Positions 20,017-60,808 of a stretch of 64,000 nucleotides of DNA are shown here, piece by piece. The stretch comes from Hydnum rufescens UP504 (Eukaryota; Basidiomycota; Agaricomycetes; Cantharellales; Hydnaceae): NCBI GenBank assembly GCA_014904985.1, contig MU129065.1, positions 9,859-73,858 of the forward strand, given 5' to 3'. A program made the position numbers and the translations under genes. The notes below the pieces were generated by a model. The model was not told the origin of the DNA. It saw nothing but the letters and a program-made list of their open reading frames with translations, and did no database searches. The stretch's first letter is position 1. Each line of letters opens with the position of its first letter.

Positions 20017-20021
20017 AATAA

Positions 20022-33549: not shown

Positions 33550-33659
33550 AATGGGAAACTGGTATGTTTCATCACATTCCCCCATAAAAAACAAAGATGA
33601 AGGATGTTCTATAGATTCCACCCCCATCCACCAGTCTCACCAATTCTGCATCTCTATCA

Positions 33660-36600: not shown

Positions 36601-37381
36601 TGAGCTGTCTCATTTTGGCTCTCGCAGACTGCCTCATTTTGGCTCTCACAAACCACCTCGCTCTTGCTCTTGCTCACTGTCTCCTGGCTATCACCAACCA
36701 CCTCCTTCTGGCTCTTGTGAATTGTCTCCTGGTTCTCATGAATTGCCTCCTGGTTCTCATGAACTGCCTCCTGGTTCTTGTGAACTGCCTCCTGGCTCTT
36801 GTGAACCATCTCGTTTTGTCTCTCACAAGTCGCCTTGTTACAGTTCTCATGAGCCTTCTCATGGGACTCATGCACCTTCCAGTTCTGGCACCCACAATTC
36901 CAGTAAAGTCCCTTTTTGCAGTCCTGAGAAACCATCTGGCTATGATCAGGGCGAGCCTTCTGACCATTATGATGGTGAGTGCTCTAGCCATGACCGCTGC
37001 AAGCTATCTTCCCTTCACTCTCACAAACCCTCAGGCTCTGGCTATGCTCATAATCCTAGTGAATATGGACCGTCATATAATGAGCTTTCGAGCATTGATC
37101 CCTCTGGCCATGATCATGAATGCTCTACCCACAATCATCACCACCCTTCTAGCCATGACCACAAATGCAAACATCCTGACCGTGGCCATGATCCCAAACA
37201 TTCCAACCACAACTGTGACCACGACCATGAGTGTGAACACTCTGGCCATGAGTGTGAACATTCTGACCATGAGCATGAATGCTCTGACCGCCACCACAAG
37301 TGGGAACATCTTGATTGTGATCATGGACATTTTGACTGCACCCACGAACATTCTGACATTGACTGTGACCATTCTAACTGA
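33660..37381 (+). pseudogene. Unknown family B, copy B3, with long His/Cys/Ser-rich tail
   Basis: The core matches B1 and B2: NWLAKDWG, then SENAWNAFLHTQW (34,290-34,410), then after an intron LKDWNTRMKAEYAALFEG (34,510-34,580), GSGWAFPGKQLGLKLHAKKY and LPFINNCAFG (35,230-35,390). Unlike B1 and B2, it continues into a large last exon (35,459-37,381) with an SR/SH-rich stretch, octapeptide repeats (HNSHEPTH) and a His/Cys/Asp-rich end (HECEHSDHEHECSD). TGA at 34,038 and TAA at 35,873 interrupt frames that otherwise continue, and the middle exons also contain stops. Metal binding by the tail is possible but unproven. Confidence 0.55.
36467..36840 (+). repeat. 24-bp and 15-18-bp coding tandem repeats in B3
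   Basis: Six copies of a 24-bp unit (CATCATAACTCC(C/T)(A/G)TGAGC type) encode HHNS(H/C)E(P/L)T. They are followed by units encoding HFGSHKP and then PPGS(H/C)EL, about seven copies. They form one open frame in B3, and the long minus-strand frames opposite are shadows. Confidence 0.75.
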
Positions 37382-38109
37382 AAGCGAACATCCTAGACAA
37401 TTCTCATGAATGTGAGTGCCCCAGCCACAATTCTCATGGATGCTGATCATATATTCTTGTGAACACCCTAGCCATGATCTTTCTAAATCTTTGCATTGCA
37501 GGCCTTTCAATTGTAGACTTGCCAAAACTACATGTAAATCATGTATCAACTTTCCCATTTCTTCCACTGTCTATAGATACCTCATTGTGCCATTGTATTT
37601 AGCATTCTACTGTACATACTTTAATTATCTACCAAATTACAGCTGATTTTTGTTTGCCCGCCTGCCGAGAACCCAAAAACATGATGAATGTGTGAGTGTT
37701 GCTGTTCCCTGTCCCATGTTAGAAGGACATCGCCTGAGCAGTGGCTGTTGTGGAGAGCCATATGAGAATTACTTAGAAAAAACATGAGCAGTGAAGGACC
37801 CATAGCATTGGGCACAATGAATCATGTATAAGAAGCAAAGCAATAATAATGCTACTAAGACTTTAGTGATGCAACAACTCCCAAGTCGAAAAACAAAAAA
37901 AATTCTTCACAGCAATCTTATGACCCAACCTGCCACCAAAATTTTAATGGCTTCTACATTTTTTTTGGTATCAGAGTGAAGTAAAAAGTATTGCTGTGGT
38001 AGGCAAGAAGAATCACTGACTTGACTATTCAATTGAGCTGAGTCACGACTAGACTTAATTCAATTGAGCCATGCCATGGCAACAGTGATATACAAAGGAA
38101 CAAAATATA
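37382..38109. other. Intergenic, B3 to KDZ-3 3' end
   Basis: This is AT-rich sequence between two convergent genes, with no supported coding region. Both 3' ends should terminate here. Confidence 0.5.
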
Positions 38110-38588
38110 TTATTTGTCCTCAGAGGCATATGTAGAGTCATGAAAGATCAGTCTACTTTCACTACATTCCTCATCCTCATCTATCTTCTTGACTACCTCT
38201 GAGACAGCAACAGTTACACCGCGATCCTCCATACAGTCCTCACTATCCAAATCAAGCTCATGTGCTGGTGTAGATAGAGAATGAATGGGAATGGCTTCCA
38301 CTGGCACACTACTACTCGTTGCAAAATGGACAACAGATTGTAGGTCAGTAGGGTAAGGAAGTTGATGCAGTGAATAATCCCATGTTATTCCAAGTTGTTT
38401 AAAGACAGAGAATTTACAGGAAAGATGAAATTGGAGAGTCGAGTCTGTCTCTATAAGGAGATTAGTTGAAGCTTAAAAACATGTATTTAGCACGTACTTG
38501 TATCCTGAATTGTGGTCCAAAGGGCATGGTGTTCTTCTGCATACCAGATGTGCATATTTGTCACTTCATGCTTGATAATTTCAAGCTC
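38110..38588 (-). pseudogene. KDZ-3 transposase, C-terminal exons (separated by the inner element)
   Basis: The first part, read leftward from 38,588, encodes ELEIIKHEVTNMHIWYAEEH. This aligns with the same place in KDZ-1 (EELKRCAAEHSNLRQW) and KDZ-2 (QELERCKGEHANLRAW). After a short intron (~38,500-38,455) comes LQFHLSCKFSVFKQLGITWDY and an acidic C-terminus ending at 38,110. It is the continuation of the frame that stops at 54,266, 15.7 kb away, with one copy of the 8-bp duplication providing the shared bases. Confidence 0.85.
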
Positions 38589-38596
38589 AACTCGAC
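38589..38596. repeat. 8-bp target duplication, inner element, left
   Basis: AACTCGAC, identical to 54,258-54,265. Confidence 0.92.
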
Positions 38597-38690
38597 CAGG
38601 CTGGTCAGACAGTCTTAGGGGCCTTAAAAGGTATGTCATTTTGATATCTGTATAGTGCCTGATAGGCTTGTATTATGTTTGATATCAAAA
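38597..38690 (+). repeat. Inner element left terminal inverted repeat and subterminal palindrome
   Basis: The repeat (38,597-38,638) shares about 30 of 42 positions with the inverted right end, including GGGGCCTTAA.AGGTATGTCA without mismatch outside one base. Next comes a palindrome with perfect 10-nt arms, TTTTGATATC (38,639-38,648) and GATATCAAAA (38,681-38,690), enclosing a small GCCT..AGGC hairpin. Confidence 0.9.
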
Positions 38691-38838
38691 AGTGATCAAA
38701 AGAGTATTTGATAGCAAAAGAGTTGGGTTTGAGATCAATTTGAGATCAACTTTGGAACTTGTAGAATTCTGCAATGCTTTACTGTAGTGCAGACGAGACA
38801 TTTTATTATGCAAAGCATTTACATGGTTAAAGGAAATA

Positions 38839-41800
38839 TTATTCTGAATCCAAATCTAGTTCTACAATTGCTTGGTCCACTGCAGCTATCAAACCAGCTT
38901 CCTCCAGCTCAAAGAACTCCTCCAGCTCACCACCCTCCAAGTCATCATCTGAACTTGCATCAAAATCATCAAGATTCCTTCTACTTTGAGAATTATGGTC
39001 CGGGCATGGTGGGGTTGTAGTGGCAACTAAAGATTCTTGTTCCAATTGCACTCGGACATTAGACCAAACACCATCATGTTGATGTAGCGCCAAAGGCATT
39101 CAAACCAAGTCCCAACTTGGAGCACCAGGAGCAATGGGCACTTGGACTATGTCCTTTTTCCAAGCTGTCATCCAGTCATACAGTTGGCGTGCCCACAGAA
39201 GCCCAAAATACGAGACATCTTCATCCTTGGATCCCATGAAGAGGTCCATTGCAGCTGAATACTCTTCATGGAACCACGCCCGAAGGTTGGCATGCTCACC
39301 CTTGCACCTCTCAAGCTCCTGCTGGCAGCTGGCCACCTCCTGTGAGATCCAGATACCTTCTTTGACTGAGGGATCTGCCAACCAAGGGGGCACAACTCCA
39401 TCTGGGAAATCCACAATATCGCCTTGAGAATCTTCCCATATATCTTGATCCACATCCAGCTTGTACAGGCCATCCATTGTGAGCATTGGCGGAATGTATG
39501 CATCTCTCCGAATACCTCCCCTTCCCCTAAGTGCAACCAGTTCCTTTAGCCTTGCATTGTATTTCTTTACAGTGGCCTCAATCTCGCTGGATCGGTTTTT
39601 CACAGCTTTCTCAACATGGCCTTTGTCTTCTGGTCCAAGATGCAACTCAAGTTCATGTGGTCCAATGTGGCAAGCTCGAACTTCCTAGCCCTCAGCTTCT
39701 TCAGAAGTTGCTCACGAAGTGCATGGAGGTTCAGCTGAATATTGACCCATTTATCCTTCTTGAGCCTATTTAACTCAGATGCAGATGCATGGTCAGTTAG
39801 CCGCAGCTCATCAGTCTTCTTGTTGATCGTGGTCTCCAATCACCAGATGGCCTCCTTCAGCAGCCTGACTTTTTCCTGCCACTCCACCTGCACTTCATTG
39901 CTTTTGTGTCATCTTGGACCAAATCATTCCCCTCAGCAATCAAATCCTTGAGATTCCCTTGCTGAGCCTCAAGGGTTGCCGTCAGAGATATGATCCGTTC
40001 CACAGCTCAGGCACCTTTCATCTGAGACTGGCATGAAACAGGTTGGCTGTGATATTCTCGTTGGGCTTTGAACTGCTCCATTAAGTAACTGGGAGAGCGG
40101 TCACCGAGCTTCATCTCTGCCTCTTCTAGGCGGTGCTGCAACTGATCAATTTGACCTTGGAGCCACTTTCCCATTCCCATGTGCTTCCCATCATCAATGT
40201 GCTCCACCTGGAGGTCAAGAATGAAGAGACGCGGGTGATAGCCTGTCACCCACAACCCAGGGATAAGCCTGTGAAGCTCACTCCAAAACTGCTCACACCC
40301 TTCGCCATCTGAGAGTCCCCAGAGCTCTGATTTGCGAGGATGATACCAGAGCTGGCATGCCCATTGATGACTGTATGCATGGAAAATCAAAACCCCCCAC
40401 TCCAAGCGAGGCAGCCATTCCGGCATGAATCTCCACTTTTTCAGAGTCTGGTCCATCTGACAGCCAATGTCATACAGGGCCCCAACTCTCCAGTGACTCA
40501 GTACATGCTTCAGGACAGTCTCCAACAGCACAAAGACATAGAACTGCTTCTCTCCTGCAGTCCACATGCTTGCAACAGCAAGTGGTATGTCATGACGGCA
40601 CAGTAGAGCTATTACCCCAGTATCTTCAAAATACTGGGTTGACACCTTGATGTGATCTTCATCTGCAGCAATAAATGGCTGCTGACATGCATCATAGGTC
40701 GAGTTTGGTGCATGGAGGCCTGGTTCCACCGATATCATCCTCCAGGTGATCTGCATAATAATCGGTGCCCTCATTGGCTGTGTGTTTTGGTCCCATGCAT
40801 GCTGGCCTTGCAGGATGAGTCTCCAGGATTTTCCTTTCCCAGGACTCCAAATAGTCCCTTGACAACACAATTGTCTTGGGTGAAGTGACTGGGGGATCGC
40901 ATGCCCCTGTCTCTCCCTCATGACCATGTCGTCAGTCTTCATTGCGGATCCAGCTTAAGTTGGAAATTTGCATCAATGCAAACTATGAGCTGGACTCTAC
41001 AAGTTTCATTGCAGTCAGAATGACTATTATCCCAGCTTGTCACAGATAATAGCCTACTCACGGCATATTACATGTGTCTGTATGATTTCCTCCAAAACAA
41101 AGTGGGCATCGCGACCTCAAGTATTCACTGGGGCAGGTATGGTCGGCAGGAATGAAATTTGAGCAGACGTCAGGAGGCAGATTGGCAGACACATGAGTGA
41201 GAATGGTGGCAGGAGCATTAACTGAAGCATTTGCTAGGAGTTGAGTTTGCAAACAGCTTCAGATCGCTCTGAACATTGACATATCCCCACTCATGTACTG
41301 GTGTTCTCTCGTCCAACTCTGAGATCAACCCTCTCTTATCATCCTGCACAATTCGAGTAATCTCTGCCCTGACCAACCAAACAAGCACCTGATAGTGCAC
41401 AAGTGCATTCGCAAAGCGTCGCCGAAATGAATCTCCTGTTGCAAACTCATACCCATGAGCTTTGAGGTACTTGACCAGAGTTGCGGCCCATGCTCTTTCA
41501 TTGGGTGCCATATGAAGAAATAGGGAGGCCACAAATTCGAGCATGTCGAGACTGACTGCCAATGTGGGGAAAAGAGGTGCACATGGGAAGAAACCACACT
41601 TCGACAAGCTGGATGGCAGCCAGACGGCATGGACAGACCATCAGCACAACCTCTTCCAGTTGCTCCATGGAAATGCAGAGAACCCGAAGGGGTCGAGGTG
41701 CCCCACATCTACATACTGCAGGACTATGGGGCTCTTCTGCCGAGAGGTCTGAGAAGCACCCCCAAGCGACCTTCATGTAGGGATGGATAAGGCTGGGTAA

Positions 41801-41860
41801 CACCTCTCTGTTCCATGTATCTGCTTGAGCAAGTTTACGAAGTGCATGCTGAGATCATTT
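38839..41860 (-). pseudogene. KDZ transposase of the inner element (KDZ-2)
   Basis: This is the transposase expected to move the inner element. The N-terminal CxC domain (41,803-41,218) has CRCG, CPC, FFPCAPLFPTLAVSLDML and DSFRRRFANALVHYQVL, then CPLCFGG (about 41,100). After an intron comes VCIDANFQLK (about 41,000), probably with the first catalytic Asp. The KDZ core frame (40,942-40,007) has FEDTGVIALLCRHD, GEKQFYV, ALYDIGCQMDQ, FHAYSHQWACQLWYHPRK and DGEGCEQFWSELH with the catalytic Glu. The C-terminal coiled-coil part reaches 38,839 with DAYIPP and LDVDQDIW. Damage is a frame step near 41,600, another near 40,940, one near 39,650, stops in 39,840-40,020 and TGA at 39,100. Its own copy is probably inactive now. 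Confidence 0.9.
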
Positions 41861-42239
41861 GTCCTTCATTACTTGTATTTTACTCTGGCTCGTTTCAGCT
41901 GCATATTGCACATCCACATGATCCCAGCTGAAGTACTCGGAACCTGTAAGGGGAGGATCAGGAGGGAATCGAGGCGAGACCAATGTTTCGAGGGAGGGCA
42001 AAGGCAAATTGGCAATGTCTCAGGCAGATGCAGATATAGAAGGGGCCATCATGTGCCTAGGCCTTTTGGATGGAGGGGGCTCATGCTCACTACCTCGATT
42101 TGGAGGTAGTTTTTGTTTTTGGTGTGTTTGTTTCTCCCTCCTCTTCTTGGCAGCCACAGACTGCAGCCAACATTATGTGAAAGCAGAGCAAGAAACTCGG
42201 AAATGGTATTGATGAGGCCATACAATAGGAACGAATGAT

Positions 42240-43690
42240 AGGCGAGGTGGCATGTGGGTGAGAAAAAACTTGACAATGGATGGATGGCCGATTCACGCAA
42301 GAGACTGCACTGCATGACTGGCAAGAATAATGGTGACTGCAGGTGAAACTGCGGTGTGACACTACCTGATGCTTTGAGATGGTGACAGGGTAGTGAGAAA
42401 AAACTCGAAAAAAGAGCTGGTTCACGCAAGAGATGCACAGATAATGGCAACTGCAGATGAAACTGCAGTGTGACACTACCCGATGCTTTGAGGGAGGGTG
42501 ACAGGATGATGTACAGGTGAGGTAACGCTTGAAAAAAGAGCTAGTTCACACAAGAGATGGCACAGATAGTGGCAACTGCAGACAGAACTGCAGTGTGACA
42601 CTACCCAATGCTTTGAGAGAGGGTGATGAGATGATGTATGGGTGAGATAAAAAAGAGCTGGTTCACACAAGAGGTGGCACAGATAGTGGCGACTGCAGAT
42701 GGAACTGTGGTGTGACACTACCCGATGCTTTGAGAGAGGGTGATGAGATGGTGTATGGGCGAGATAACAGTCGAAAAAAAGAGCTGGTTCACTCAAGAGA
42801 TGGCACAGATAGTGGTGACTGCAGACAAAACTGTGGTGTGACACTACCCAATGCTTTGAGAGAGGGTGATGAGATGATGTATGGGTGAGATAAAAAAGAG
42901 CCGGTTCGCAGCAAGAGGTGGCACGGATAGTGGCGACTGTGGACAAAACTGTGGTGTGACACTACCTGATGCTTTGAGGGAGGGTGACGAGATGATGTAT
43001 GGGCAAGATAACAGTTGAAAAAAAGAGCTGGTTCGCTCGAGAGATGGCACGGATAGTGGCAACTGCAGACAAAACCGCGGTGTGACACTACCCAATGCTT
43101 TGAGAGAGGGTGACGAGATGATGTATGGGTGAGATATAAAAGAGCTGGTTCGCACAAGAAGTGGCATGGATAGTGGCAACTGCGGACAAAACCGCGGTGA
43201 CACTACCCAGTGCCTTGAGAGAGGGCGATGAGGTGACGTGTGAGCGAGATAATGCTCAGAAAAAAGAGCTGGTTTGTGTAATAAATAGCATGGATAGTGG
43301 TGACTGCAGTTGAAACTGCAGTGTGACACTACCCGGTGCCTTGAGGAGGGTGATGAGGTGATGTGTGAGTGAGATAATGCTTGAACAAACAGAGGATCCA
43401 TGCAAGAGATGGCACGGATAGTGGTGACTGCAAAACTGTGGTGTGACACTACCCAGTGCCTTGAGAGAGGGCGACGAGGTGACGGGTGAGTGAGATAATG
43501 TTCAAAAACAACAGAGGATCTGTGCAAGAACACAAATAGTGGTGACTGCAGTCAAAACTGCAGTGTGACACTACCCAGTGCCTTGAGTGAGATAACACTG
43601 GAAAAAAACAGGGGATCTGCACAAGAGAAGGCACAACTCAGTCAAAACTGTAGTGTGACACTACCCGGTGCCTTGAGAGAGAGCAGCAAT
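42240..43690. repeat. ~120-bp satellite array, ~12 copies
   Basis: The marker word GTGTGACACTACCC recurs near 42,354, 42,468, 42,593, 42,710, 42,836, 42,955, 43,079, 43,320, 43,440, 43,562 and 43,652, with a shortened variant near 43,196. That gives a 114-126-bp period with one short unit at the end. Each unit also has an A-run, AAGAGCTGGTTC, GGCACGGATAGTGG and GACTGCAG. It lies 0.4 kb upstream of the KDZ-2 start. Long minus-strand frames across it are repeat artefacts. Confidence 0.9.
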
Positions 43691-43897
43691 GTCACATCGA
43701 CATTACTATTAATAATATTGCACATCGTGACAAATCTGTATGCTACATTTTTGTGCGGGAATGAGTGGAATGATAGCACCAGGACATCATGCAGGTGGGG
43801 AAGTGGCGAAGGTGGGAAAAGAAAGGCCATTAAAAGAAAGGGGGTACAGTAGAAAGGGGTGGAAAGAAGGGGCCATGGATTTGAAAAGGGCCGTAGC

Positions 43898-46032
43898 TCA
43901 AGGAATAAAATACTGTTGGGGTAGACAATGTATGCAGACACCATCAATCGTGCCCTTCACACTTGCATCACTGCCCCCATTGGACCAAACCAGAACCATG
44001 GGGTCCTGGTGTTTCTTCTGAAACTTCGGAAACCTCAATTGCATTGTTGCAGAAGCTAAATCAGTTGAGCTAGATTCAGCACTCGAAGCCACATTGGTGG
44101 CAGGTGATTTCCCCTCGCTCCATACATGCTTTGCAGTAGAGTCCTTTTCCACAGACTTGGTCACCTTCTGCTTCGAGTTCAACGTCTCGATTGGGCGAAC
44201 ACGGGGCGGCTCCTTTCTGTCATCCACAAGCTCCACTTGGGGAATGCCACTGGATTACTTGCCAAAGATGAAGGCCTTTGATACACCCCGGAGTGCAGCC
44301 ATCCCATGTCTTGACAAAGGCACTCTCGGTCCTTAGGGTCTCTGGCGATGGCTGCCAATGACTTGGTAGAGTTGCCCCTCCTCGTCATCGTCAAAAACCA
44401 CTTGATTTGATTGTCCTTGAGGCATTCAAACCCCCACAATCAAAGTTGTTTTTCTGAATTAGGCATACATTCCGACACCATGATTGGTATGTTGGGTTTG
44501 CCTTTGAGAATGGTTGAATACGGATGTACACCAATGAATGACATTTTCGCATGTTCGACAGAATCAGAAGACACCTCAAGAACAAGGGCTGATAACTGGA
44601 TGTGTTTTCGAGAATGAGAATTGAAACCAAAAGAGAGCGCAGTGCAGAACGTACTGAATATTGGCCCCAAACTGATACCAGTTGGACCTCAGCTATTATG
44701 CACCATCCTACCAGCATACCTAATCCCTTCAAAAACAGCTTCTCTTTGCGGTCGATCCAATGGTTGGGTTGAAATCCACTGTCCATAAGGGGGACACCCA
44801 TGCAAACGAAGAGATTGGATAACTCGACCATCACGAGAAACAAGGGGCTAATGCGAAGCAGTGAATTTTGCACTGAGCCTGGGCTCATGGTAGATTCTCA
44901 GACTTCAAGGAGAGTACTGTATGGTAGAGTGTAGATGGCCTGAAGTCAAGAAAGAATTTTGAATCCGAACTGATCCAAAACAGAAAACCAGACTGAGCTA
45001 GGTTGATGAAATAATGTACATACCATACAGCTCGCAAACAATTTTGGAATCCAATACACCCATTCTGCTCAAATTCTACTGAAGAAAAAGCTGTGGAAGC
45101 CATACCAGAATCCAGTCCACCCACATAGGAACCAGAACCACCATCTCTGCTCATTGTAAAGAATGAAGCAGAAATCCTCAAATTAGGGGTCTCCTCAAGG
45201 TAAACACACATTACTGAATATTCAATTTCCTCTTTTATTTAAAAAAAAGATAACAACAAAATTAGAATTGGTTGCTACAGTATATACTTGACTGTGGACT
45301 TCCAAATCCTCAGTGGATAGTGGAGCGCAAAAAAACAACAGGTGAACATCCACCATTTGCCACTGACTTGCTCGTGACTGTTAATGTCTTGGGGTTTGCT
45401 GTTCCCTCGGACCTACACTCAGACCCCAGCATGGAACAGTGGATGAAGCCACAAAACTGGAGAATGATCAATCGATGACAAAGGTGAAGCTGGGGGATAA
45501 CTGCAAGTGTGGGAGGGGAAATACAGGTGATCACTTGTTCCATGGTCTCTGAATGGTGGGGCATCTGGGTCAGGGTGTTTCTTCGGCATCCGATTCCCAT
45601 AGGGGGATGGGTGAGAGGTTGTCCTGGACGTCGAATGAAAAGTTCAAGAGGGAGTTGGGTATATGTTCATACTGAGTAGTCATAGAAAGCCTGGATGGCT
45701 ACAGGGTCCTGTGGAGGCTTGAATGCTACAGGGCAGATTTAAGAATCATGTACACCCAAATATGTTCATGAGCACCTACAAGAAGTTGGTATCCACCCCT
45801 GCTTGCTTTGTTGAATGATATCCAATGCCTCTTTCCAAAGAGCATAATACCTGCGCATGACCTCCCTGCCAGCATCCTCCTCCCAGTCAGCGATGTACAC
45901 TTGTGGTTCATGAGCTTGTGAGAACTCAAAGTGTGTAGAAGGGACAGTGGACACGATACCAGAGAGGCTACTTCCCAAGGAATATGGTGATGAGTAGAGT
46001 CCAGGGACTTCTTCTGCAATCATCTCGACCAT
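43898..46032 (-). pseudogene. Unassigned minus-strand exons
   Basis: Several protein-like stretches lie on the minus strand: YIADWEEDAGREVMRRYYAL (about 45,900), LNFSFDVQDNLSPIPLWESD (about 45,620), a Ser-rich piece with KKHQDPMVLVWSN (44,020) and others. Splice-like gaps lie between them, but I cannot chain them into one reading frame and recognise no domain. It diverges from gene D, sharing the 46.0-46.4 kb interval. Treat it as a tentative gene region. Confidence 0.3.
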
Positions 46033-46437
46033 AGAAGATCAAGAGACAGATGTCCCCATGATCTAACGTGGGTAGAACTTGTGCTTAGAGGCCGAAATGT
46101 GTCCCCTGCACTAAGAATTGTAACATCGATGCTTGGCTGAGACCCTGACTTGTTACAATCCGTCGCCAGGGGGGTATCGGGAGACATGAAGATAACTGTC
46201 GCCGAATGGGATGCAGTATGGTTTGAGGTGATGCTCTGAGTAAATGTTTGGTTGAATTGCAGCTGACAGAGGCCGGGTATACTCAGAAGAAGACCCTGAT
46301 GGGGTGAGTGTAGGTTGACAATTAGGGTGTGTGGTACAAAATGGCTCGAAAGGGTTGACACTTCAATCCAAATCGACATGATGCAATGTTTGACCAGAAG
46401 CAGAATTTGGTCGGAAGCAAAATAACTTACTGCTACT

Positions 46438-48395
46438 ATGGAACCTACGTCAACCTCAGGTACCCATGCACAGCCTTCCACCCTTGCAGCAAATTGCAGC
46501 AAGCTCAGTCAGCTGTCTGGGCCTGACACAGTTCCATGTCAGCACTCTCAGGATGGGGCTCCAGATTCTGAGCCTGCTTCTGACCTCACTCTCCAGAGTG
46601 GGCAAAGTTGCACCTCTAATCAAGAATATTCTGGATCAAGCCCTATGACCTGGTCCAAGGATGGAGATGCTGAGGCAGTGCCAGTCGATGCTGCTTGGAG
46701 TGATCTGTTTGACAATCGGGAGAAGCTCGAAATGTATTCAAGAAGCCGACAGTTGCTGTTGAAACATAAGTCATACCATTGGTTCTCAAGTTTTTTTTAA
46801 ATTTGTTAGCTGAATATGAATCATTTGGTGGATGCAGCATCGGCATGCTGTTACTTGCAGAAGGAGTGGTCATTGGTGTTCACAAGTAGCCAAAGGCACT
46901 TCCAATATTTCGGTGTCTCCTCAACACTCCACCCCCCTGTTCATCAAGCAGGGGTCCTGGATTCAGGTGATTATACTCTCAGGCCAACATTATTGGATGC
47001 AAATGCCCCCTATCATGCATTCATAACCTGTACTCAGTTGGACCCACCTTCCTATACCCTGTGATGAATGTGCAGAACAACGGAGTCAAGATGATTTTGC
47101 CTTACTATCAATCGTTATTCACCAAATTTTTCTCATTGTGTTGTTGTGCTCTTGAACACTGGTCTTCTGTCACGAGGTACCTTAAAGTGCTGGATGTCCC
47201 CCTTCCCCCTACAAAACCAACTAGTCTTGGTCGCTCCACCTCACTCGAATTCATACCCGACTCCGTTTGGGCAAGTGGGGATGTTCACTTGAATGTACTC
47301 ACGAGGTTTGCTTATGACTGCCGAGGGTATGCTGAATACGTGATGCATCTTGCCATCGACCACATTGCCTGCACCTACAACCTGGACCTTCCTGTCTTTG
47401 GGATAGATGATCAACAAGTAGGGGCTGTATATCGCTTACCTCTTACTCCTGCAGATTGTCAAGCAGTAGATGATCTTGTGTGAATGGGTACACCAGTCTT
47501 TGGTGTCATGGAGTATCCACATCGCAACCGTCGTGATACTGTGCCCAATTGTTGTCCTGACTCTCCCGAGGCAGCCACAGCTGCAGCAGCCGAATATTTT
47601 GCTGCAATGAAGAAGTGGGACGAGCAGAATGTCGATGTCACTGAGTATATCGTACACATCGAGGTTCCACTGGTTCATGTGCAGCACCCAGTCAATTGGT
47701 TCATCAGGCTGCATTTGGGATATCCTGGTGAACTTGATCACAATGATCGTCCTCTCTGTGAAGCTGCATCACACATTTTGCCTGCTGGCGAAATTTGCGA
47801 GACTGATGTGGTTGCTTTATGGGACTTCCTTGGTTGTGGCCCATGGCCTGCTGCCCAGGCATACAAGGTGCCAAAGTTCTATTACAAATACGAATTCAGG
47901 GAGGTGATAAAAATCTATGTCAATGAGGACGACGGTCCAATGGCTTCTTCATCGAAGGTGGTGGGTGATAACATGGAGGATCATTGTTTCAATATCTACA
48001 ATGACATCATGGGGAACCCCTATGACGAGGATGACAATAATTGGGAGAATGAGGGGGACTACAATCTCAATCCTACTCCTCACTTGGATGCAAAACAGGA
48101 GGCTGAAGCAAAGGCCCTAGTACTCACCGCCAAAAGTGGAGATGGTACTGCAAAGTCTCAAATTACTAAAGTTCTTCAAGGTGCCCAGGGCAAGAAGAGG
48201 GGGAAATGGCACAATGGGAAGCCTCCCCAAACTGACTTTGAGACTGCAGTTATGCAATTGTGGAGATCCTCCGATGGCCCCTCAAAGGTGAAAAAAAAGC
48301 AGGCGAAAAAACTTGCCCAGGAGAGATGGTGTGCTGAGGCAGACACAGCAGCAGCCCCCCCAGATCAGAGTGCTGGAGGAGGCTCAAAGGCTTGA
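46438..48395 (+). pseudogene. Unknown gene D of the inner element
   Basis: The first frame is Ser/Thr/Gln-rich, then acidic, ending KHKSYHWFSSFF (46,438-46,797). Later frames encode EWSLVFTSSQRHFQYFGVSS (about 46,870) and then one continuous frame, 47,061-48,395, of about 445 codons. It includes YRLPLTPADCQAVDDLV, VFGVMEYPHRNRRDTVPNCC, DVTEYIVHIEVPLVHVQHPV, LHLGYPGELDHND, ALWDFLGCGPWP and a Lys-rich end (VKKKQAKKLAQERW). A TGA at 47,481-47,483 sits inside this frame with clear coding on both sides. No domain is recognised. The Lys-rich end suggests a nuclear or DNA-associated role, weakly. Confidence 0.5.
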
Positions 48396-48449
48396 AGCAG
48401 AAAGACTGAAATGGGAAGCAGAAGAGCATGTGCACCTTCAACAGGGTGG

Positions 48450-48640
48450 ACATGCCTCTGTTGCACCTGCTCCCTCTTCTGTTCCTGCCCTCCAGTTCCT
48501 GCTCCTCCAGTTCCTGCCCTCCAGTTCCTGCCCCTCCAGTTCCTGCCCTTCCTGCCCTCCAGTTCCTGCCCTCCAGTTCCTGCCCTCCGGTTCCTGCCCT
48601 TCCTGTTCCTTCTGCCCTGCTTCTGTGCTGAATCCTGCTT
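48450..48640 (+). repeat. 12-15-bp CCAGTTCCTGCCCT repeat
   Basis: About eight to ten direct copies of (C)CTCCAGTTCCTGCC, and a few with CCGG in place of CCAG, span the end of D and the approach to A2. Frames through it are Pro/Val/Ser- or Gly/Arg/Thr-rich and low complexity. Confidence 0.8.
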
Positions 48641-48724
48641 GGCCACGCACTCCGACCCCGACCCCTACTTCTCTTGAGCCTGGTTCTCCTCGCACTCCCA
48701 CGTATTCTCCTGTCACTCCAGTGA

Positions 48725-50650
48725 GTGACCCATTTCCACCTTGTGCACCATCTCCCCATCGTTTGTCCCCGCCTCCTCATCAAGCATGATCCCCTCATCA
48801 TTCGCGATCCCCTCATCATTCACGAACCCCTCATCATTTGCGATCCCCTCATCATGCATGATCCCCTCGTCATGCATGATCCCCTCATCGTGTATGATCC
48901 CCTCGTCGTGCACGATCCCCTCATCGTGCATGATCCCCTCGTCATGCACAATCCCCTCATCGTGCATGATCCCCTTGTCGTGCACAATCCCCTCGTCGTG
49001 CATGATCCCCTCGTCGTGCACAATCCCCTCGTCGTGCACAATCCCCTCGTCGTGCATGATCCCCTCATCGTGCATGATCCCCTTGTCATGTGCCATCTCC
49101 TCTTCATCGTGTGCCATCTCCCCTCATGTGTCATTCCCTCCCTGCCATGCACCATTTTGCTGCTGGTCCCTGTCTCCCCCCAGCCATGCCTGGTCCCACC
49201 ATCACTGGGCACCTTCTCCCTGCCCTGCTCCATCTTCTTTTTGTCAGTCCCCTCTCCTCCTCATCGAGCCTGGTCTCCTGCTCATCAAGGTCCGTCCTTC
49301 CACTCTGGCCACCCCAAAGGAAGGCCAAGATCACCCCTGGAGCCACCAAGGGGGCCACAAGCAGTGCAACAAGAACTGCCAAGGGGACAACCTGGGGAGT
49401 TGGGAAGGCAATGGGAGCCATCAAGCTCCCAAGTGTCCCAAGAGCTTGAGCGCCGGAGCCATGGCTGCTTCAGGGATGATCATGATGGGCAGATGCGGGA
49501 TGGACCTTGGCAGAGTGCCTCGTCTTCAAAGGCACCAACCCATCAGCCCCTGCCACAGCCAGCATGGAGGCCATCCCTCTCTCCATCCCAAGAGTATGCA
49601 CATCCAGGCCCATCCTCACTGCATCGCCGCAGTCAGACACTGCCGCTGTCCTCTGGACTGCCGCCCAGTTGTCAGGATCCTCCATCACCACCCCAACCTG
49701 AGGCTACACCTCTCCTGAGTCACTTAGGGCCTGCACCAACACCGTTTCCTCAAGGCTCTGTGGCACCTATTGCCAGTGTTGCACCAAGTGTTTCAGATGT
49801 GAGCACACCGTGGCCTCCACCAGAATGCCTGAGGCTAGCCCAATGGTATGCATTGGATATTGCAGGTGTCGATGGCCAAGAGGACCCCTTGACCTGGGTG
49901 CACCAGAACTCTCATCTGGGTGTGCTGGCAGCATGGAGGGTGAAACCCATTTGGAAGAAGGGCGCGATGTACCACATGTACCTCCTCTTCAAGGACGTGG
50001 CCAAATGAGATTCGTGTTGGAGTGTCTTGGCATCTTTGTGTGGTGGCAAGACACTTCTCCCTTTCCTGTACACGGATACACTGGTGAATTGTTTTGGAGT
50101 CACTGAAGTAAGGTACATGCAGGAGGTGTACATCAATGCAATCTCAACTGCTGAGATCCAGGAGCTCCTGGCTGTTGGACCACACCCTTACATGACACCT
50201 GGTGATGCTATCCCTGAGATGCTCAACTATATTTGGTATCCTGCATTACTCAACCCTTGTCCTGCTCCTCCCAAGCATGAGCAAACTCGTGCCATGATTA
50301 GTGTTGAGTTTGACACTGAATGGCTCAGCAGACGACTCCATCATGCATGAAAGGAAGACCCAGGCTCTGTGACAGTCAGTATGCGATGCATGGAGATGCA
50401 GATGATCATGCACAGGGCTCTGGCAAAGGGTACTGCTTTGGCTTTCTGTGAGAACATTTGGCCAGTGCCTGGGGGCACAATGATATCTGACATACGCCAG
50501 ATCTCCAGATGGGCATATGCTGATCTTGGAGGGAGCGAGGTTCATTCGAGCATGGAGAATTTTGGATGAACAAGGATCCGGCTGGCATGGCGTATTGTCT
50601 TGGAGTTAAATAGGGACCAGCCTCGATTCCACAAGTGGATTGATGAGTAG
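48725..50650 (+). pseudogene. Unknown family A, copy A2, with hexapeptide repeat N-terminus
   Basis: A 427-codon frame (48,725-50,008) begins with about 17 copies of a six-residue repeat (HDPLVV/I type). It passes a Pro/Ser/Gln-rich linker and reaches the conserved block LAQWYALDIAG..DPLTWVHQNSH (49,840-49,920), KPIWKKGAMYHMYLLFK (49,950-50,000). After a one-base frame step the family continues as EVRYMQEVYINAIS.AEIQELLAVGP and MLNYIWYPAL, then TGA at 50,348 and GSVTVSMRCMEMQMIMHRAL up to about 50,650. A1 shares these blocks in order. The frame opens with GTG, so the start is uncertain. No known domain. Confidence 0.6.
48783..49095 (+). repeat. 18-bp tandem repeat coding HDPLVV units
   Basis: About 17 direct copies of an 18-bp unit, CCCCTCGTCGTGCATGAT with A/G and C/T variants. 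All three plus frames and two minus frames stay open. The frame that continues into the A family core reads (H/R)DPL(I/V)(I/V/M). Confidence 0.9.
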
Positions 50651-51417
50651 GTATATCTCTAGCCTTACTCTTGTTCATATGCTATTTGACCATCCCCTTC
50701 GCCACCAGCCCATTTCCCCACACTGCCAGCTCATTGCTGCCTTCCCTCTGCCATTTCCTGCATCCCGTCATTGCCTTCGACCTCCCGCATTTTCCTCTCT
50801 ATCCTCCATTCCTTGACATTAATATTATCATCTTACATATATCGCACATGTACTCATTCATACAATAATATATACATCCATCTGTACTGAAGAATCGTTT
50901 ACTGGCAATGTCCGGGAATATTGTTCACTCACACAACATTAACAGTCTCTGGTGGAGTCTGGTTTTGGACAGTGTGACCATACACTCCCTATTTCCTGCT
51001 CCACTGAAGACTTTCCATCCACTACACTCCTTCTACTGGCTTTTGGTCATCTTCCAACAAACCTGCGAAGTCCCAGGGCTACACCTTCCACTCCTACCTC
51101 TTGCCAGCCTTTGGGGGTTCTTGGAGAGTCTGGTCAAAGACAGTGCACACTGCACCCCTATTGCCTGCTTTCCATCTGCTTTTTTTGGCATCTCATTCAC
51201 TCCTGCTGCACTTGCTGTCTTCCAACTACCCTACACTTTCAATCCCTCAAAGCCTGGTTTAGGACAGCACAGTTTTTTGCGCTCTCCCTATTCCTACTTT
51301 GCACCATGTGATATCTTGCCATCCGTTCCCTCAATGTTGTAGCCTGAAGTTGTGAGGGTGCACTTTCTGTACCCCCACTTCTACTACTTTTTTTCATGAG
51401 CTGACTCCTAGCCTGAT
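50651..51417. other. A2-B2 intergenic region
   Basis: A pyrimidine-rich tract (50,690-50,830) and then duplicated words (GGAGTCTGGT.TTGGACAGTG.., at 50,950-50,985 and 51,125-51,160) lie here. No supported coding region. The layout matches the A1-B1 interval, where leader blocks are also duplicated. Confidence 0.5.
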
Positions 51418-53832
51418 ATGCCACCTAAGACATATCAAGCCTGAAAAAGGACCACAAGGCCTGCTGCCACCCCGGCAGGTTGAATGGCCCAGTCCTCTAC
51501 AATAACCAATGACACCACAGTCCCTTCAACGAGCAGTGAATCTGCTAGTGGGCCCCAGACAAGAGAGTCTTCTGACACAACTGGCTGAAGCTTCCAGCAC
51601 CCCCATTACGCGCCCTGTCCCTCAGCATAATGAGTGGTTTATTGACATTCTGTTGTTGCGATCACACCAACAAATGGTTCAGCTTGCTCCACCTCGATCT
51701 AGAAACCATCCCAGTGTACCTACAGTGCGTTTCCTATCCATTTTATTTCCTAGATTGCTTTAAATTGACTTCCACTACAGTCCATTCCTTATTCTTCGAA
51801 TCCTGCTGGTCACTCCCCATCTCCTGCTGGTTCTCCTGCTCCATTTCCTGGTCTTTCTCATGCTCAATCACCCCATATTCCTTGTGCTCAATCGCCCCAT
51901 ATTCCTTGTGCTCAATCACCCCGTATTCCTCATGCTCAATCACCCCATATTCCTCGTGCTCAATCACCCCGTATTCCTCATGCTCAATCGCCCTGTATTC
52001 CTCACACTCAATCGCCCCATATTCATCGTGCTCAATCTCACAATTGCTCTTGTGGTTGTCCTCACACTCAGTCTCCTGCTCAGTCCCCTGCTCAGGCCGC
52101 CACTTGGTCTCCCCAGCCCCCAAGTCATACCTCATCTCACACATTTGGCAATTCTCCATTTGTTGGGGATTTTGATCATGAGGTCGAGCCTTCTGGTCTA
52201 TATCATCAGCATGAAAATTCAGTCATTTTGGATCCACCAAATCCAAATGATGGGAATCCAGATGTTGAGGATGACGACTTGGTTGCTGAGGAGGGTGACA
52301 CTGCACAAATCAAATCACAGGGTGGACCATTTATGGACGAACAAGTCACTGAGATCAGAGGCATTGTTGAATCCATGAACCGTGAGCTTGAGCACAAGGC
52401 AAAAGAGTGGGACAGGCCTCTTGAGTCTGTGATGCGGATCAGGAACCTTGCAATAAGCATGAGAGAATGGCAAAGTGCTGGGAATCCATGGAATGCATAT
52501 CAGGCCTCATATGAGAAGGACCCCAAGCCAGACCATCCCCATCACAAGGATGTGGAAAAAGTCATACAGCCAGCCTATCATGAGCTCATTGCTGCACATG
52601 GTGGTGAAGACTCCAATGCATGGAAAAAGAAATCGAAGGAGCTTGTGGATCAGCACAATGCCTCAAAGGCAGCCCAAGCTTTTGATATTGCCCTCTCACT
52701 GGCTGCGATGGGCAAAGTCATTAAGCAGACTACGAAACGCTGGAAGGATGACTTGAAATGGATGGCCACTATGAACATCCACAGGTTCTGTGGAATCGTC
52801 AGTGGCATTCCTGATGAGGTGGCTTCAAAACAGAATGCTCTATTCACTGGCTCACCAGTGATGAAGGACTGGCTAAATTTGTCTTTCCCAAAAGACAGTA
52901 CATCATTGAAGATGATTCATTCCCACATCCTGGTCTATCAGGGGCAACATCTTTTACGCCAAAATCAGAAGCAAAAGATTCCAAAGTCTATGCATCTGAT
53001 GCAGAAGGAGATTTCGGAGGAGCTCAATAACCTTCTAACTCCTCTGATTGGTCAGGTACTGCGTATACCTTGGGCAAGTCTCCCCCGATTCCTTGTCAAC
53101 AACAAGTTGAAGATTGAGAATTGGGTTACGGAATCCGAATTTCCAAGTCTCTTGTCCCTTGATGTCACTGTAGTCCAAATGGAGAGTTGGAAGAAACTTT
53201 GGCATACCTTTTTCCAGCCATCGGCCAATTCAACAAAGGTCTGAGTTACTCAGCTCAAGCATATCGCCCAGGAGAATAATGGGAGGCTTCCCAGTGACAC
53301 TGTAATCATCTCTGATCAATTCAATAACCCACTCCTGACTGTTGCTCAAGTGGATGGACCGGGGGAGCCAAAAGAGTCCAATGCCAACACTGCCAATGGG
53401 ACTCCCATCGCAGGCGGTGCTTCTGGGCCCAGGAAGCGGGCCTCTCAAGGTGATGGCCACTCACAGAAGAAAAAGAGGATGGGCCCTAAGCATCCAATGT
53501 CTGCTGAATTCATCGATGAGCCCAGTGACGATGATGGCCCTGCAACAGATACTTTTGAAAATCCAGGTGGAGCAAGTTCCATTGGTGGTCAATCTAGTGG
53601 AACTACTTGGGGTGGTGCTGGGTCTTCTGTTGATGGTGTTGTCAATGATAAATTTAGTGGGAATGCTTCAAGTGGTGTCATCAATGGTCCAATGGACTGG
53701 GCCAGGGGATATGGTCAAAACCAGCAAGAATACAACCCACATGATGATCCCTTGATGGCATCCCTGTTTGGGAGGTACCCTGATTTGAACCTTGGCTTGA
53801 ATCAAGGGTTTGATGATGGATTTCCTCTCTAA
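51418..53832 (+). pseudogene. Unknown family B, copy B2
   Basis: It starts at ATG 51,418 (MPPKTYQA). TGA at 51,442, 51,481 and 51,586 sit in the N-terminal frame, and the first two have an Arg-friendly context. An intron fits 51,729-51,778 (GTGCGT..CTACAG). The main exon begins with an octapeptide repeat (AQSPHIPC). It then has an acidic PDVEDDD patch and the core KAKEWDRPLESVMRIRNLA..GNPWNAYQASYEKD (52,400-52,520), VIQPAYHELIAAHGGEDSNAWKKKSKEL, KRWKDDLKWMATMNIHRFCG and LPRFLVNNKLKIENWV. TGA at 53,242 precedes a Gly/Ser/Asn-rich C-terminal part with RKRASQ and KKKRMG basic clusters, ending at 53,832. It is the best preserved B copy. Confidence 0.65.
51857..52045 (+). repeat. 24-bp coding repeat in B2
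   Basis: Seven to eight copies of a 24-bp unit (GCTCAATC(A/G)CCC(C/T)(A/G)TATTCC type) encode AQSP(H/R)IP(C/H/R) in the frame that continues into the B2 core. Other open frames here are shadows. Confidence 0.85.
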
Positions 53833-54215
53833 ATTCTTCCACCTGATCTCTGCTTGTGGATGTCTTGGATGTGTGCTTTGCATGCTTTTGCATGCTTCAT
53901 GCACTTTGAGTACCTCTGCCTTCCCTTGGCCTTTTTTAAGACAAATGTTTTCCCTTCATTTGACATACTACACCTATTTCTTGGATTTAATTTCTTAATC
54001 TCTGAAGAACTCGACTTCTTGTTAATTGCTCTATGCATATATAACACATTAATTGACTTGATATCTGCTGCTGTACCATGAGAAACCTTAAAGGTTGTGA
54101 GTTTGATATCAAAATCCCCAAGGGCAGACTTATGGATTGACCTAAGGTCACCCTCCTGAAATTATTTGATATCAAAGGATTCTGATGCCTGCTAGGCTTT
54201 TGATTTGACACAGTT
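53833..54215. other. Inner element 3' non-coding region
   Basis: The stretch from the B2 stop to the right inverted repeat is AT-rich, with TGATATCAAA palindromes at about 54,103 and 54,168 that echo the left-end palindrome. No gene. Confidence 0.6.
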
Positions 54216-54257
54216 TGACATACCTATTAAGGCCCCTCTAAGTGGCTGACTGAGGTG
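54216..54257 (-). repeat. Inner element right terminal inverted repeat
   Basis: Reads TGACATACCTATTAAGGCCC at its inner side and ends CTGACTGAGGTG. It is the inverted partner of 38,597-38,638. Confidence 0.92.
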
Positions 54258-54265
54258 AACTCGAC
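54258..54265. repeat. 8-bp target duplication, inner element, right
   Basis: AACTCGAC, identical to 38,589-38,596. It lies in the coding sequence of KDZ-3. Confidence 0.92.
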
Positions 54266-57200
54266 ATCCTTCTGAATCCAGATACGCAATAATGGCTACA
54301 TGCATATTTTCATCTGCCAGCCATTGGGGTGGTGGACAATCATCTCCTAGTCCCACCTCAAGAATATGCAAGCCTTTCCATATTATGCCATCAATGTCCA
54401 ATGAGAACAACCCCTTGCAGTCGAGTTTTTCTGGTTGAATTGCACCATGCAGTGCTTCTTCCCAGGCATCCAGCATATGCTGGATTTCCTTATTGAGTTC
54501 GTTAAGGCAGCACAGGACTGCCAGTTGTCGCTTCTTGTCTGATTGTGCCTTGTGAACCCAAGCTTTGTGATCTAGAGGCAATTTAGGAATCAGATCAAGT
54601 TTCATACACTTTAAGAGTTATGCTCACCAAGTATATGGCTTTGGTAGTCCTCGATACACTGCGTAATTGTGAATTTATGACCAACCAAGGCCGAAACTAG
54701 CTGTTGATAGTGAGCATGAGCACAAATTAGTGCATCATACCATTGGGAACTCTTGATCTTGTCCAAATCATGTCTCATCACCCTGTCTTGAAGTAGTAAT
54801 TTGGCCTCCCACTTGGTAAGCTGTAATTCAACTTTCTCTAATGATGACCGCAATTGATCAAGGCGATCAAGGAGTTTGCCACAATGTAGAGACGAGGGAT
54901 CATGAAGAACGGCAGTGGCTTGGCGATTTGTAATTGATGTGATCTGTCACCGAAGTGATGTTCGAGTCCAAACCAGATTCAGTATTCATTCAATTGCTTT
55001 TGCCCCAGCATCCTTTTCTGGGACTTGGATTAACTCGTGTCAGCAAATACAAGTTGAATAGGCACAGGAAATGCATGAGGTGGCTGAGCTTGCTGAGTAG
55101 ACAATTGCTCTGCCCATGCTTCTTTGATTTCATTGAGTGGGATCTGCAAATGGTCGAGCACTGCTTCTGCTTCCTCTAGTTTGGCCATGGCATCTTCAAA
55201 CTGGCACTTCTGCCAGCTCGCAAGTTTGAGAAGATTCTGCTTGTTGATATATGCTTGTTTGGTGTTGATTACGAATAAACGGCAATGAAACTGGTACAAG
55301 ACAGGTAATCCCAGGGATGTGAGAGGAGTGCAATGAACACTTACTCCAGAGATTCAACAAGTCGGAATAATCCCGTTGAGGAGATTCCATTCTCTCTCAC
55401 ATCCTTCACCATCCGTACATCCAAATTCCAGATTCTTATAAGGATGGTATGACAGCTGGCAAGGCCACTGATGGCCATATGCATGGAAAACCAGAGTTGC
55501 AAATTTGAGCCATGGGAGGCATTTCAGCAAAAGCTGCCACTACCACAGATCCCCAGTCAGCATAGGAAATAGAAAAATAGCCATAACATACACATTCCAT
55601 TTCATGATGCATAGTGCAGATGACATCATAAAAAAACCCCATGGTGAATGACTCTGGAAGCTCTCCGAGGAGCTTCTGCATCATAGCAAGCATAAAGTAC
55701 TGTTTTTCACCATTGGGACCCATATTGATGAACCAGATTACATTGTCATGTTGACAGACCATGACAATGAGCCCTTTATCTGAATAGTCCTTAGATATTC
55801 TGATATGGTAGTCCTTAGCAGTGAGGTAAGAGTCCTTGCATTGATCGATAACATCATTCATGACTGCCATTCCTTTTTCATGAACATTCAGAGAGGGTTT
55901 CCTACCAGCCAACTTCACAGCAGCCTTAGTCTCAGTATAGTAGTCGCTCATTGCAGATGTCTCCGACATTGACACAAACAGGTCCTGTGGGACTGGTGAC
56001 CCAAAAGGGTAATCTTGCTCACCATGCCTATCTTGTTGCTGTTGGGTTGCACACCCATCACCTGAAACAAATGCACAGGGCCTAACTATGTATTAGAGAC
56101 TTCATGGCATGGATATTGTAAAAGGACATACTGGCCATCCTTTGGATACTCAATTCCTCCAAAGCACGCAGGGCAGTGGTATTGGAGGTAGATGCTGGGG
56201 TGGGTATTGTCCATAGTTGGCTTGTGGTCCTCGGGATTTGTGTGATATGAACAAGTATATGGATTTGCTGCAAGGCTTTCCAAGGTGGGCACTGTTGATT
56301 TGAGAGACAACGACTTAAGTAGGGATGATTTGAGCAGAGACGAACAGAGTGGGGAGGAATTGAGTGATGACGAATCAAGTGGCAATGAATCAAGCAACAA
56401 TGAATCAGGCAGCAATGAATCAAGCAGTGATGAATCAAGTGGCGACGAATCAGGCAGCGATGAATCAGGCAGTGACAAATCAAGCAGTGACAAATCAAGT
56501 GGTGACAAATCAAGCAATGACAAATCAAGTGGCGATGAATCAAGCAGTGACAAATCAAGTGGCGATGAATCAAGCAGTGACAAATCAAGTGGCGATGAAT
56601 CAAGCAGCGACAAATCAAGTGGCGATGAATCAAGCAGTGACAAATCAAGTGGCGATGAATCAAGCAGTGACAAATCAAGTGGCGATGAATCAAGCAGTGA
56701 CAAATCAAGTGGCGATGAATCAAGCAGTGACAAATCAAGTGGCGATGAATCAAGCAGTGACAAATCAAGTGGCGACAAATCAAGTGGCGACAAATCAAGT
56801 GGCAACAAATCAAGTGGCAACAAATCAAGTGGCGACAAATCAAGTGGCGACAAATCAAGTGGCGACAAATCAAGTGGCGACAAATCAAGTGGCGACAAAT
56901 CAAGTGGTGACAAATCAAGTGGCGACAAATCAAGTGGCAACAAATCAAGTGGTGATGAATCAAGTGGCAACAAATCAAGTGGCAACAAATCAAGTGGCAA
57001 CAAATCAAGTGGCAACAAATCAAGTGGCAACAAATCAAGCGGTGACAAGTCAAGTGGCAATGAATCAAGTGACGATGAATCAAGTGGTGACCATTCCAGG
57101 GATCATAATCCATACTCTTACTCCTGCTTTCTGGCCAATACAACTGCACTATTCACAACTTCCTCTGCAGAACTGACCAAGACCTCATACAATTGCAGTG

Positions 57201-58850: not shown

Positions 58851-59179
58851 CAGTGCATTTCACAGCAGCTCTCGATAAGGTGGACTGAATGGGGTACAAC
58901 CACCCATTGTAATAAGGATGCTTGTGAATCAGTGACGCAGTGGGCAAAACAAGATCGCATGAAAATGAGAATGCGAGGCAGGTACAGAACACATGAGAAG
59001 ACATAGAGGAATGCAAGAGAGATTTGAGCAGTATTTAGGTGCCAGAGCACCAAGGAGTTAAGAAAATGGTACGCAGACTGCGATTGATCAAGGCAATGAG
59101 GCAAACACAACATTGCACAACTGATTCCGCTGGATTTTGCCCTCACCAAACAATGCACTACTCATCATAGGAACCCGAG

Positions 59180-60200: not shown

Positions 60201-60209
60201 GGGGCCTAG

Positions 60210-60800
60210 GTGATGGACTCACAAGCAAGATGTAAAGCAAGATCAGCAAGATGTGTCCTAGGTTCAGGAACTCAACCAAAAAAACAACGAACATGGGGCA
60301 AGTGGTCCTATAGTGAGGCTAGTTATTCATAAACACGATATTAGTATAGCAAACCAGACAGTAGGATTCTTTTATTGCAAAGGAGCACCCAGACAGGTCA
60401 GGGAAGGTAAAGTTAGGGGGGGGGGTAATCCGCGCGTAGGTGCAAGTGAGCCAAGGTTTGCGTTGACCTGATTTGATTCCGATGTGGGCTATCCAAGGGC
60501 TAGCAGAGCTTGCCTGAAGCTAATTTCAGCTTACCCAAGCTAAAATTGGTGGCTTCCCAGGGCTAAATTGGGCTGGCCCAACCTAGCTACCCTGGGGCTT
60601 CTTGGGGGCTACTGCCCCTGAACCCCCACCTTTTTCTGTGTGGACCCAGGGCTAAAAAATATGGCCTGGCAAGCCTATTTTTCAAGCAAGGAAGGATGGT
60701 GATCCAAGGTAAACTCATATAGATTAGACCTAGTTAGCTAAGATATGCCTATAGGGAATATCCTAGCTAACTAGGTACCTTGGGTTGATTGCCTGAGGTG
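60210..60800 (-). repeat. Outer element right terminal inverted repeat with palindrome
   Basis: Inverted partner of 31,578-32,168. A palindrome (60,728-60,776, arms ACCTAGTTAGCTA and TAGCTAACTAGGT) lies 24 bp from the end. The end reads GATTGCCTGAGGTG at 60,800. Confidence 0.92.
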
Positions 60801-60808
60801 CATGCATT
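60801..60808. repeat. 8-bp target duplication, outer element, right
   Basis: CATGCATT, identical to 31,570-31,577. Confidence 0.9.

Follow-up and report, generated by a model that had tools for sequence, protein, structure and literature searches.

The locus

We analysed a window of 64,000 nucleotides of the basidiomycete Hydnum rufescens UP504 (contig MU129065.1, positions 9,859 to 73,858 of the forward strand), which contains a transposon of the KDZ (Kyakuja-Dileera-Zisupton) superfamily inserted in a second, complete KDZ transposon, within the gene for its transposase. We call them the inner and the outer element. The inner element occupies positions 38597-54257 of the window (15,661 bp), has AACTCGAC on both sides, starts with CAGGCTGG and finishes with GAGGTG. 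Besides its transposase it carries three accessory genes, named A, D and B, and is laid out as follows (TSD, target-site duplication; TIR, terminal inverted repeat):

38589..38596, unstranded: left TSD copy AACTCGAC, exact 8-bp direct repeat
38597..38638, plus strand: left TIR (CAGGCTGG...GTATGTCA), from the comparison of the ends; 60 genome copies with at most 3 mismatches in a 30-mer
38842..42016, minus strand: KDZ transposase gene of several exons, from the Pfam KDZ match and the exon open frames; outer limits approximate
42408..43591, unstranded: tandem-repeat array (unit about 120 bp) separating the transposase from the accessory genes
46810..48392, plus strand: accessory gene A, conserved open frame 47484-48392; limits approximate
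50012..50566, plus strand: accessory gene D, conserved part
51509..53829, plus strand: accessory gene B, the annotated protein P0034 of 744 amino acids
54216..54257, minus strand: right TIR, from the comparison of the ends; 67 genome copies
54258..54265, unstranded: right TSD copy AACTCGAC, exact 8-bp direct repeat

The duplication and the limits 38589..54265 given by a first-pass annotation of this DNA proved right to the base. It had also described inverted ends of 42 bp: an inverted repeat is indeed present (CAGG...GGTG), but it is imperfect, with 31 of 42 bases paired without gaps and 21 of 22 in its inner part (AGGGGCCTTAAWAGGTATGTCA). Local alignment of the two ends scored 42, against a maximum of 25 when 100-bp stretches were paired at random up to 1,000 times. 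When the 21-base core of the TIRs was searched with at most 3 mismatches, the only matches in the window were the two ends of the inner element, the expectation from shuffles being 0. A blind scan of the window for an 8-bp repeat, CA..TG and inverted ends spaced by 1.5-45 kb returned two elements, the inner one and one larger, and gave 0 hits in three single-base shuffles; a third row was discounted as an offset artefact within the long ends of the larger element.

The transposase gene has its catalytic exon at 40010-40954, its C-terminal exon at 39103-39684 and a weak CxC1-like N-terminal stretch at about 41221-41851, all on the minus strand. The internal KDZ transposase that had been claimed is borne out by a match to the KDZ domain PF18758 (E 1.9e-44, 152.4 bits for a cut-off of 26.6), and separate pieces of the gene matched CxC1 at 13.4-14.3 bits, under the cut-off of 26.9. 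The transposase domain, the TIRs and the 8-bp duplication are all present and confirm that the element is a DNA transposon of the KDZ superfamily. Duplications of 8 bp had been attributed to Zisupton/KDZ elements, and passages of PMC12730594 agree with this for Zisupton. A six-frame Pfam scan covering all of the inner element but about 0.7 kb of either strand, at one end, found no TET/JBP domain, of which a remote PE-type could be missed, and the same scan found no tyrosine recombinase of the Starship captain kind.

Insertion into a host KDZ gene

When the inner element was excised in silico, as the first-pass annotation had proposed, and the flanks were joined with one AACTCGAC, the minus strand read as an open frame of 153 amino acids over the junction, 117 before it and 36 after, while the remaining two frames reached only 21 and 17. 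The joined peptide aligns with the C-terminal exon of the inner KDZ gene in an alignment that spans the junction (36% over 81 columns). We also searched the genome for empty sites, each flank being queried with its own copy of the duplication, so that the evidence consists of alignments and not of letters read at the sites. At three places (C165, C5 and C463) both flanks were matched at 90-95% and the matches overlapped by exactly 8 bp, which implies a single target copy in these uninterrupted relatives. The flank matches at C135 and C53 (67-71%) overlap by 7 bp, and C104, C150 and C158 fit an empty site by extrapolation only, since their matches end before it. These results show that the inner element entered one 8-bp site, now doubled, in the transposase gene of a different complete KDZ element; the earlier claim of a base-for-base insertion into another KDZ transposase thus holds. 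With its natural empty sites, the locus illustrates clearly how one giant element has landed inside another.

The arrangement is KDZ inside KDZ: the host gene lies in another complete element, flanked by a duplication of its own, a fact that was absent from the finding of the first-pass annotation. Its features are:

31570..31577, unstranded: left TSD CATGCATT of the outer element
31578..60800, unstranded: outer KDZ element, 29,223 bp including the inner one
38110..38588, minus strand: 3' part of the interrupted KDZ gene, continuous in relatives; downstream limit approximate
54266..58728, minus strand: 5' part of the interrupted KDZ gene, with the KDZ domain within 55436-56089 (E 2e-16); upstream limit approximate
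60801..60808, unstranded: right TSD CATGCATT of the outer element

Without the inner element and one duplication copy the outer element measures 13,554 bp. Its TIRs are 84% alike over about 600 bp and 96% over the first 134 bp, and its last eight bases, CTGAGGTG, are the same as those of the inner element. Relative to the ends, its KDZ gene has the opposite orientation to that of the inner element. No relatives of A, D or B were found inside it. The inner element has the higher ratio of observed to expected CpG (0.34, against 0.29 for the outer one), a small difference that points the way expected if the inner element were the younger. Further open frames of the outer element at 33.6-37.4 kb on the plus strand are unrelated to A, D and B, and the one that was checked had no Pfam match.

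Copies across the genome

The genome searched was that of Hydnum rufescens UP504 (63.2 Mb), in which the window is C157:9859-73858. Copies sharing the ends of the inner element, whose absence the first-pass annotation had named as evidence against itself, are numerous: we found 60 left and 67 right ends (at most 3 mismatches in 30 bases), and reversed patterns gave 0. Among the best 40 of 340 candidates, the left 3.4 kb are near-complete (to at least position 3,346 of 3,404) at no fewer than 13 further places, at 93-96%. We read 29 distinct left and 45 distinct right flanks, the window's copy included in both. A stretch of 1.5 kb with the end of the transposase is kept in 15 of the 29 left flanks, and one of 1.5 kb with part of B in 20 of the 45 right flanks. 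Many copies are deleted or rearranged, because the remaining flanks break at many different points.

The full layout of left end, KDZ, A, D, B and right end is found in C2 (15.5 kb), whose flanks mismatch, and in C232 (15.6 kb), whose right flank was unread. As for end pairs on the same contig with both flanks readable, C157 shares its duplication and C113 shares 7 bp, which become 8 after a shift of a single base. Over all flanks, four exact 8-mers were common to the left and right sets, against about 0.02 expected (29 x 45 / 65536). Among 74 flanks of about 1.4 kb next to the ends, six match KDZ exons, the window's own flank being one of them, and two match the B or D family; as no control was run, we claim no preference for landing in KDZ genes. 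The 8-bp flanks at the 74 ends seem to lean weakly towards a palindrome, with C/G at both ends and T-A in the middle.

An ordered set of accessory genes

The three accessory genes keep their order and strand across the genome. Among the 42 D matches of at least 49% identity, A lies upstream in 34 and B downstream in 34, on the same strand, with both in place in 26; B was on the opposite strand within 7 kb of D in only one of the 42. All 99 D matches together have A in place 38 times, B 53 times and both 27 times, whereas the highest counts in 200 random placements were 2, 4 and 0, in a control that ignores the clustering of transposons. These counts took in 99 of 103 D, 108 of 143 B, 55 of 82 A and 150 of 154 KDZ matches; the omissions are mainly second pieces of genes and weak secondary matches, and at least one left-out B piece (C65:20581) stands apart.

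The transposase has a preferred position as well. In 14 of the 21 D-KDZ pairs at most 15 kb apart, KDZ lies 8.7-13.1 kb upstream of D and is encoded on the opposite strand (binomial p 7e-5, in a test that counts related copies as independent); among the others, three have it downstream on the opposite strand, three upstream on the same strand and one downstream on the same strand. Since the KDZ matches listed come from the best 150 of 584 candidates, the counts of KDZ near D are lower bounds, and the lack of a listed KDZ beside the other D matches speaks neither for nor against one. In 9 of the 14 pairs the identity of D is just 29-39%. The ends of the element follow the same plan: for B matches of at least 84%, a right end lies within 4 kb downstream in 25 of 33 and upstream or on the other strand in 0 (some of these matches being two pieces of one gene), and at least 11 of the 60 left ends are followed inwards by a listed KDZ that is on the opposite strand, while one shows another arrangement. 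A layout of left end, KDZ toward the left end and then A-D-B toward the right end recurs in other copies, and partly in far-diverged families.

The window itself holds a diverged second A-D-B set (29-45% identity), whose genes follow each other as in the inner element and lie at 16.3, 20.5 and 24.1-25.1 kb. It may belong to another element. The proteins P0034 and P0057, compared with the translated window, are its two B genes. The region of the second set (16324-25696) has no recognised ends, and the ratio of observed to expected CpG is 0.13 over 13-31.6 kb.

Nature of A, D and B, and selection on them

A, D and B gave no Pfam or NCBIfam match of note. In word-filtered searches we found 71 relatives of B and 13 of A. 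The organism name is Hydnum rufescens for 60 and 12 of these, respectively, and is missing for the other 11 and one; these searches with A and B returned no relative named from another organism. Members of the B family carry basic stretches, and in 14 members the last 70 residues are acidic-hydrophobic, with 7-11 acidic and 0-3 basic residues. From this composition B looks like a nuclear protein with an activator-like acidic C-terminus. Its structural model has a confident domain at about residues 241-360, which matched a GTF2I domain only weakly. The B gene of the window has an in-frame stop that is absent in 13 of 20 aligned copies, and the public gene model has an intron there.

We then compared B with the transposase. 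The ratio of nonsynonymous to synonymous substitution rates (dN/dS) was 0.44 and 0.41 for two parts of B (20 copies), the first giving 0.67-0.68 in shifted frames, and 0.51 (shifted 0.54 and 0.70) and 0.36 for the transposase exons (15 copies), all of these measures being distorted by CpG decay. In B, changes common to at least three copies had a lower amino-acid-changing share than singletons (69:46 vs 48:15, p 0.033); the same comparison gave 27:17 vs 37:9 for the transposase (p 0.063). This test pools two stretches per gene and leaves out two-copy changes and, except in the main transposase exon, 2-3 frameshifted copies of each stretch. B thus seems to be about as constrained as the transposase, unlike neutral baggage, with an effect that is modest.

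CpG decay

In the whole window the observed to expected ratio is 0.28 for CpG and 1.43 for TpG. At the right ends of the inner family 269 columns vary, 133 of them by changes of the CpG type; for the left ends the figures are 258 and 116. Stops in the B frame (17 copies) and in one KDZ exon (15 copies) are TGA in 26 of 26 cases; in the wider match tables of A, D, B and KDZ, TGA predominates, with some TAG and TAA. The pattern fits a decay of inner-family copies mainly through CpG methylation followed by deamination, rather than through CpA-directed repeat-induced point mutation. Such decay would provide a motive for an anti-silencing function encoded by the elements.

Discussion

The largest DNA transposons of eukaryotes include KDZ elements, and the reason why these carry extra genes is open. 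The superfamily was reportedly named by Iyer et al. in 2014. Its elements use a cut-and-paste chemistry of the DDE type. We are confident that the element described here is a member of a multi-copy, multi-gene KDZ transposon family of Hydnum rufescens that inserted in a second KDZ element. The KDZ protein would recognise the CAGG..GGTG ends, then cut and join. A, D and B might be accessory proteins needed for the spread of the element, and their likeliest roles would be in element expression, in assembly of the transposition complex or in resisting host silencing. Since these elements decay mainly through CpG mutation, resistance to methylation-based silencing would be a sensible candidate role. 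A bolder proposal is that a large branch of the KDZ transposons of hedgehog mushrooms might be four-gene machines, in which the KDZ transposase and A-D-B, three proteins of undescribed families, would have stayed together through deep divergence because they are needed for transposition or for escape from CpG methylation, and B would act as an element-encoded, DNA-binding transcriptional activator; we put it forward tentatively, as a possibility on which we would not yet rely.

Could the locus be explained otherwise? An assembly join or a repeat collapse at 38.6 and 54.3 kb would draw on the close likeness of most copies (90-96%) and on several same-contig end pairs that lack a common duplication, so that other parts of the assembly may contain chimeric joins. 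Yet, the perfect 8-bp duplication stands exactly at the element ends, and because three uninterrupted relatives run continuously through the same site, with a single 8-bp copy, we take a join at this one to be excluded, or at least extremely improbable. One might also speculate that two elements are adjacent here, that A-D-B is a mobile unit of its own and that its closeness to KDZ reflects the clustering of transposons. The genome is dense in KDZ genes and most D matches have no listed KDZ within 15 kb (at least 21 pairs for 99 D matches). But this is at odds with the preferred place and strand of KDZ (14 of 21), with left ends lying by KDZ (at least 11 of 60 against one otherwise) and right ends by B (25 of 33 against 0), and with the single 8-bp duplication that encloses all four genes here. 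We consider such a pair of elements very unlikely.

Somewhat more credit, although still little, is due to the idea that a single KDZ element has recently picked up A, D and B from the host or from a foreign source and carries them along as passengers. They lack known transposon domains, and fungal KDZ elements are documented to have captured genes of the TET/JBP kind (PMC12730594). Against this, the ordered set recurs outside the inner family, partly in families at 29-39% amino-acid identity, no host-gene source is in sight for A or B in the word-filtered search, and the constraint on B about equals that on the transposase. The first-pass annotation had suggested that KDZ elements act as gene carriers in mushrooms. 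A large KDZ element with several non-transposase genes is indeed what we find, as A, D and B are enclosed by one duplication; that these are captured genes is not supported, given an ordered and recurrent cassette, a constrained B and no relatives of A or B named from another organism. Because their order and strand recur genome-wide, and KDZ, where one is listed nearby, is mostly upstream and on the opposite strand, even in families 29-39% alike, A, D and B look like an integral, conserved accessory cassette rather than captured cargo.

Several observations weigh against our preferred reading of a multi-gene KDZ family with a conserved cassette. Among the weaker D matches (26-39% identity, each weak in itself, E 6e-7 to 8e-4), A is in place in 4 of 57, B in 19 and both in one, with B on the opposite strand in 0. 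The number of D-KDZ pairs given above does not demonstrate a KDZ gene in every cassette, and the nearest listed KDZ to the second A-D-B set (1.4-4.5 kb in the window) is some 18 kb off, on the same strand. The end pairs of C2, C86, C111 and C33 have no common duplication, and three of the four shared 8-mers join different contigs (C232/C477, C241/C258 and C26/C39), which could be due to a contig break, to allelic contigs or to recombination between copies. Structure searches on the accessory proteins gave nothing firm, and the stop in B suggests that this copy may not be fully functional. On the side of selection, the main transposase exon is barely below one of its shifted frames, and taken singly the four stretches of the shared-versus-singleton comparison are not significant (p 0.21, 0.12, 0.22 and 0.07). 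The limits of the random placements, of the binomial test and of the selection measures, stated with the respective figures, belong to the same list.

How does the inner element compare with published ones? Zisupton and other KDZ elements are alike in the KDZ domain, the inverted ends and the 8-bp duplication; the inner element adds A, D and B in a fixed order. Fungal KDZ elements carrying TET/JBP genes (Kojima 2025, PMC12730594) likewise have an extra gene, for which resistance to methylation-based silencing has been proposed, and the Laccaria Kyakuja elements have CA..TG termini as here; the TET/JBP domain was not found by Pfam in the inner element. In the Laccaria Kyakuja families the duplications measure 7 bp and inverted repeats are absent (PMC12730594), whereas the inner element has 8 bp and inverted ends. 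These two features do not decide membership in Kyakuja, because the Chlamydomonas insertion Kyakuja-3_cRei has both an 8-bp duplication and imperfect inverted ends (PMC10828217). We would therefore place the element at the level of the KDZ superfamily and leave its sub-lineage (Zisupton, Kyakuja or Dileera) open.

KDZ1 of the basidiomycete Cryptococcus neoformans, found inserted in a reporter gene, measures about 11 kb, with 241-bp inverted ends and 8-bp duplications (PMC12810828). It is closer to the outer element than to the inner one, whose ends are short and imperfect and which carries A, D and B. In Ectocarpus, giant KDZ elements reach 30.3 kb (PMC12477816) and resemble ours in large size, accessory genes and nested insertions, while that of Chlamydomonas (31.7 kb, PMC10828217) does so in large size, 8-bp duplication and imperfect inverted ends; they live in other hosts, and the passages describing them mention no A-D-B-like cassette. 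Starships of Pezizomycotina are also large fungal transposons with extra genes, but they are classified by their tyrosine recombinase (PMC12134995), which was not found in the inner element. Large KDZ elements with extra genes, fungi included, are thus already published (PMC12730594, PMC12477816), as are 8-bp duplications and nesting. The fixed A-D-B cassette appears to be new: the open-licence literature yielded no description of it and no paper on KDZ and Hydnum together, which is no proof that none is in print. The genome of Hydnum is reported in PMC7550596, whose main text does not contain the word KDZ.

The ordered A-D-B cassette offers a concrete set of proteins for probing a role in transposition or anti-silencing. 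Parts of it persist across families just 29-39% alike, in a genome where transposons are visibly mutated at CpG sites.

Other features of the window

Near the KDZ gene labelled KDZ-1, a retrotransposon with reverse transcriptase and RNase H lies at 6899-10384 on the minus strand; its gag-type protease match is weak and under the cut-off. A cluster of inverted and hairpin-like repeats (CCAAAAGAGCAGC..GCTGCTCTTTTGG, ACCACACACC..) is found at 16976-19467.

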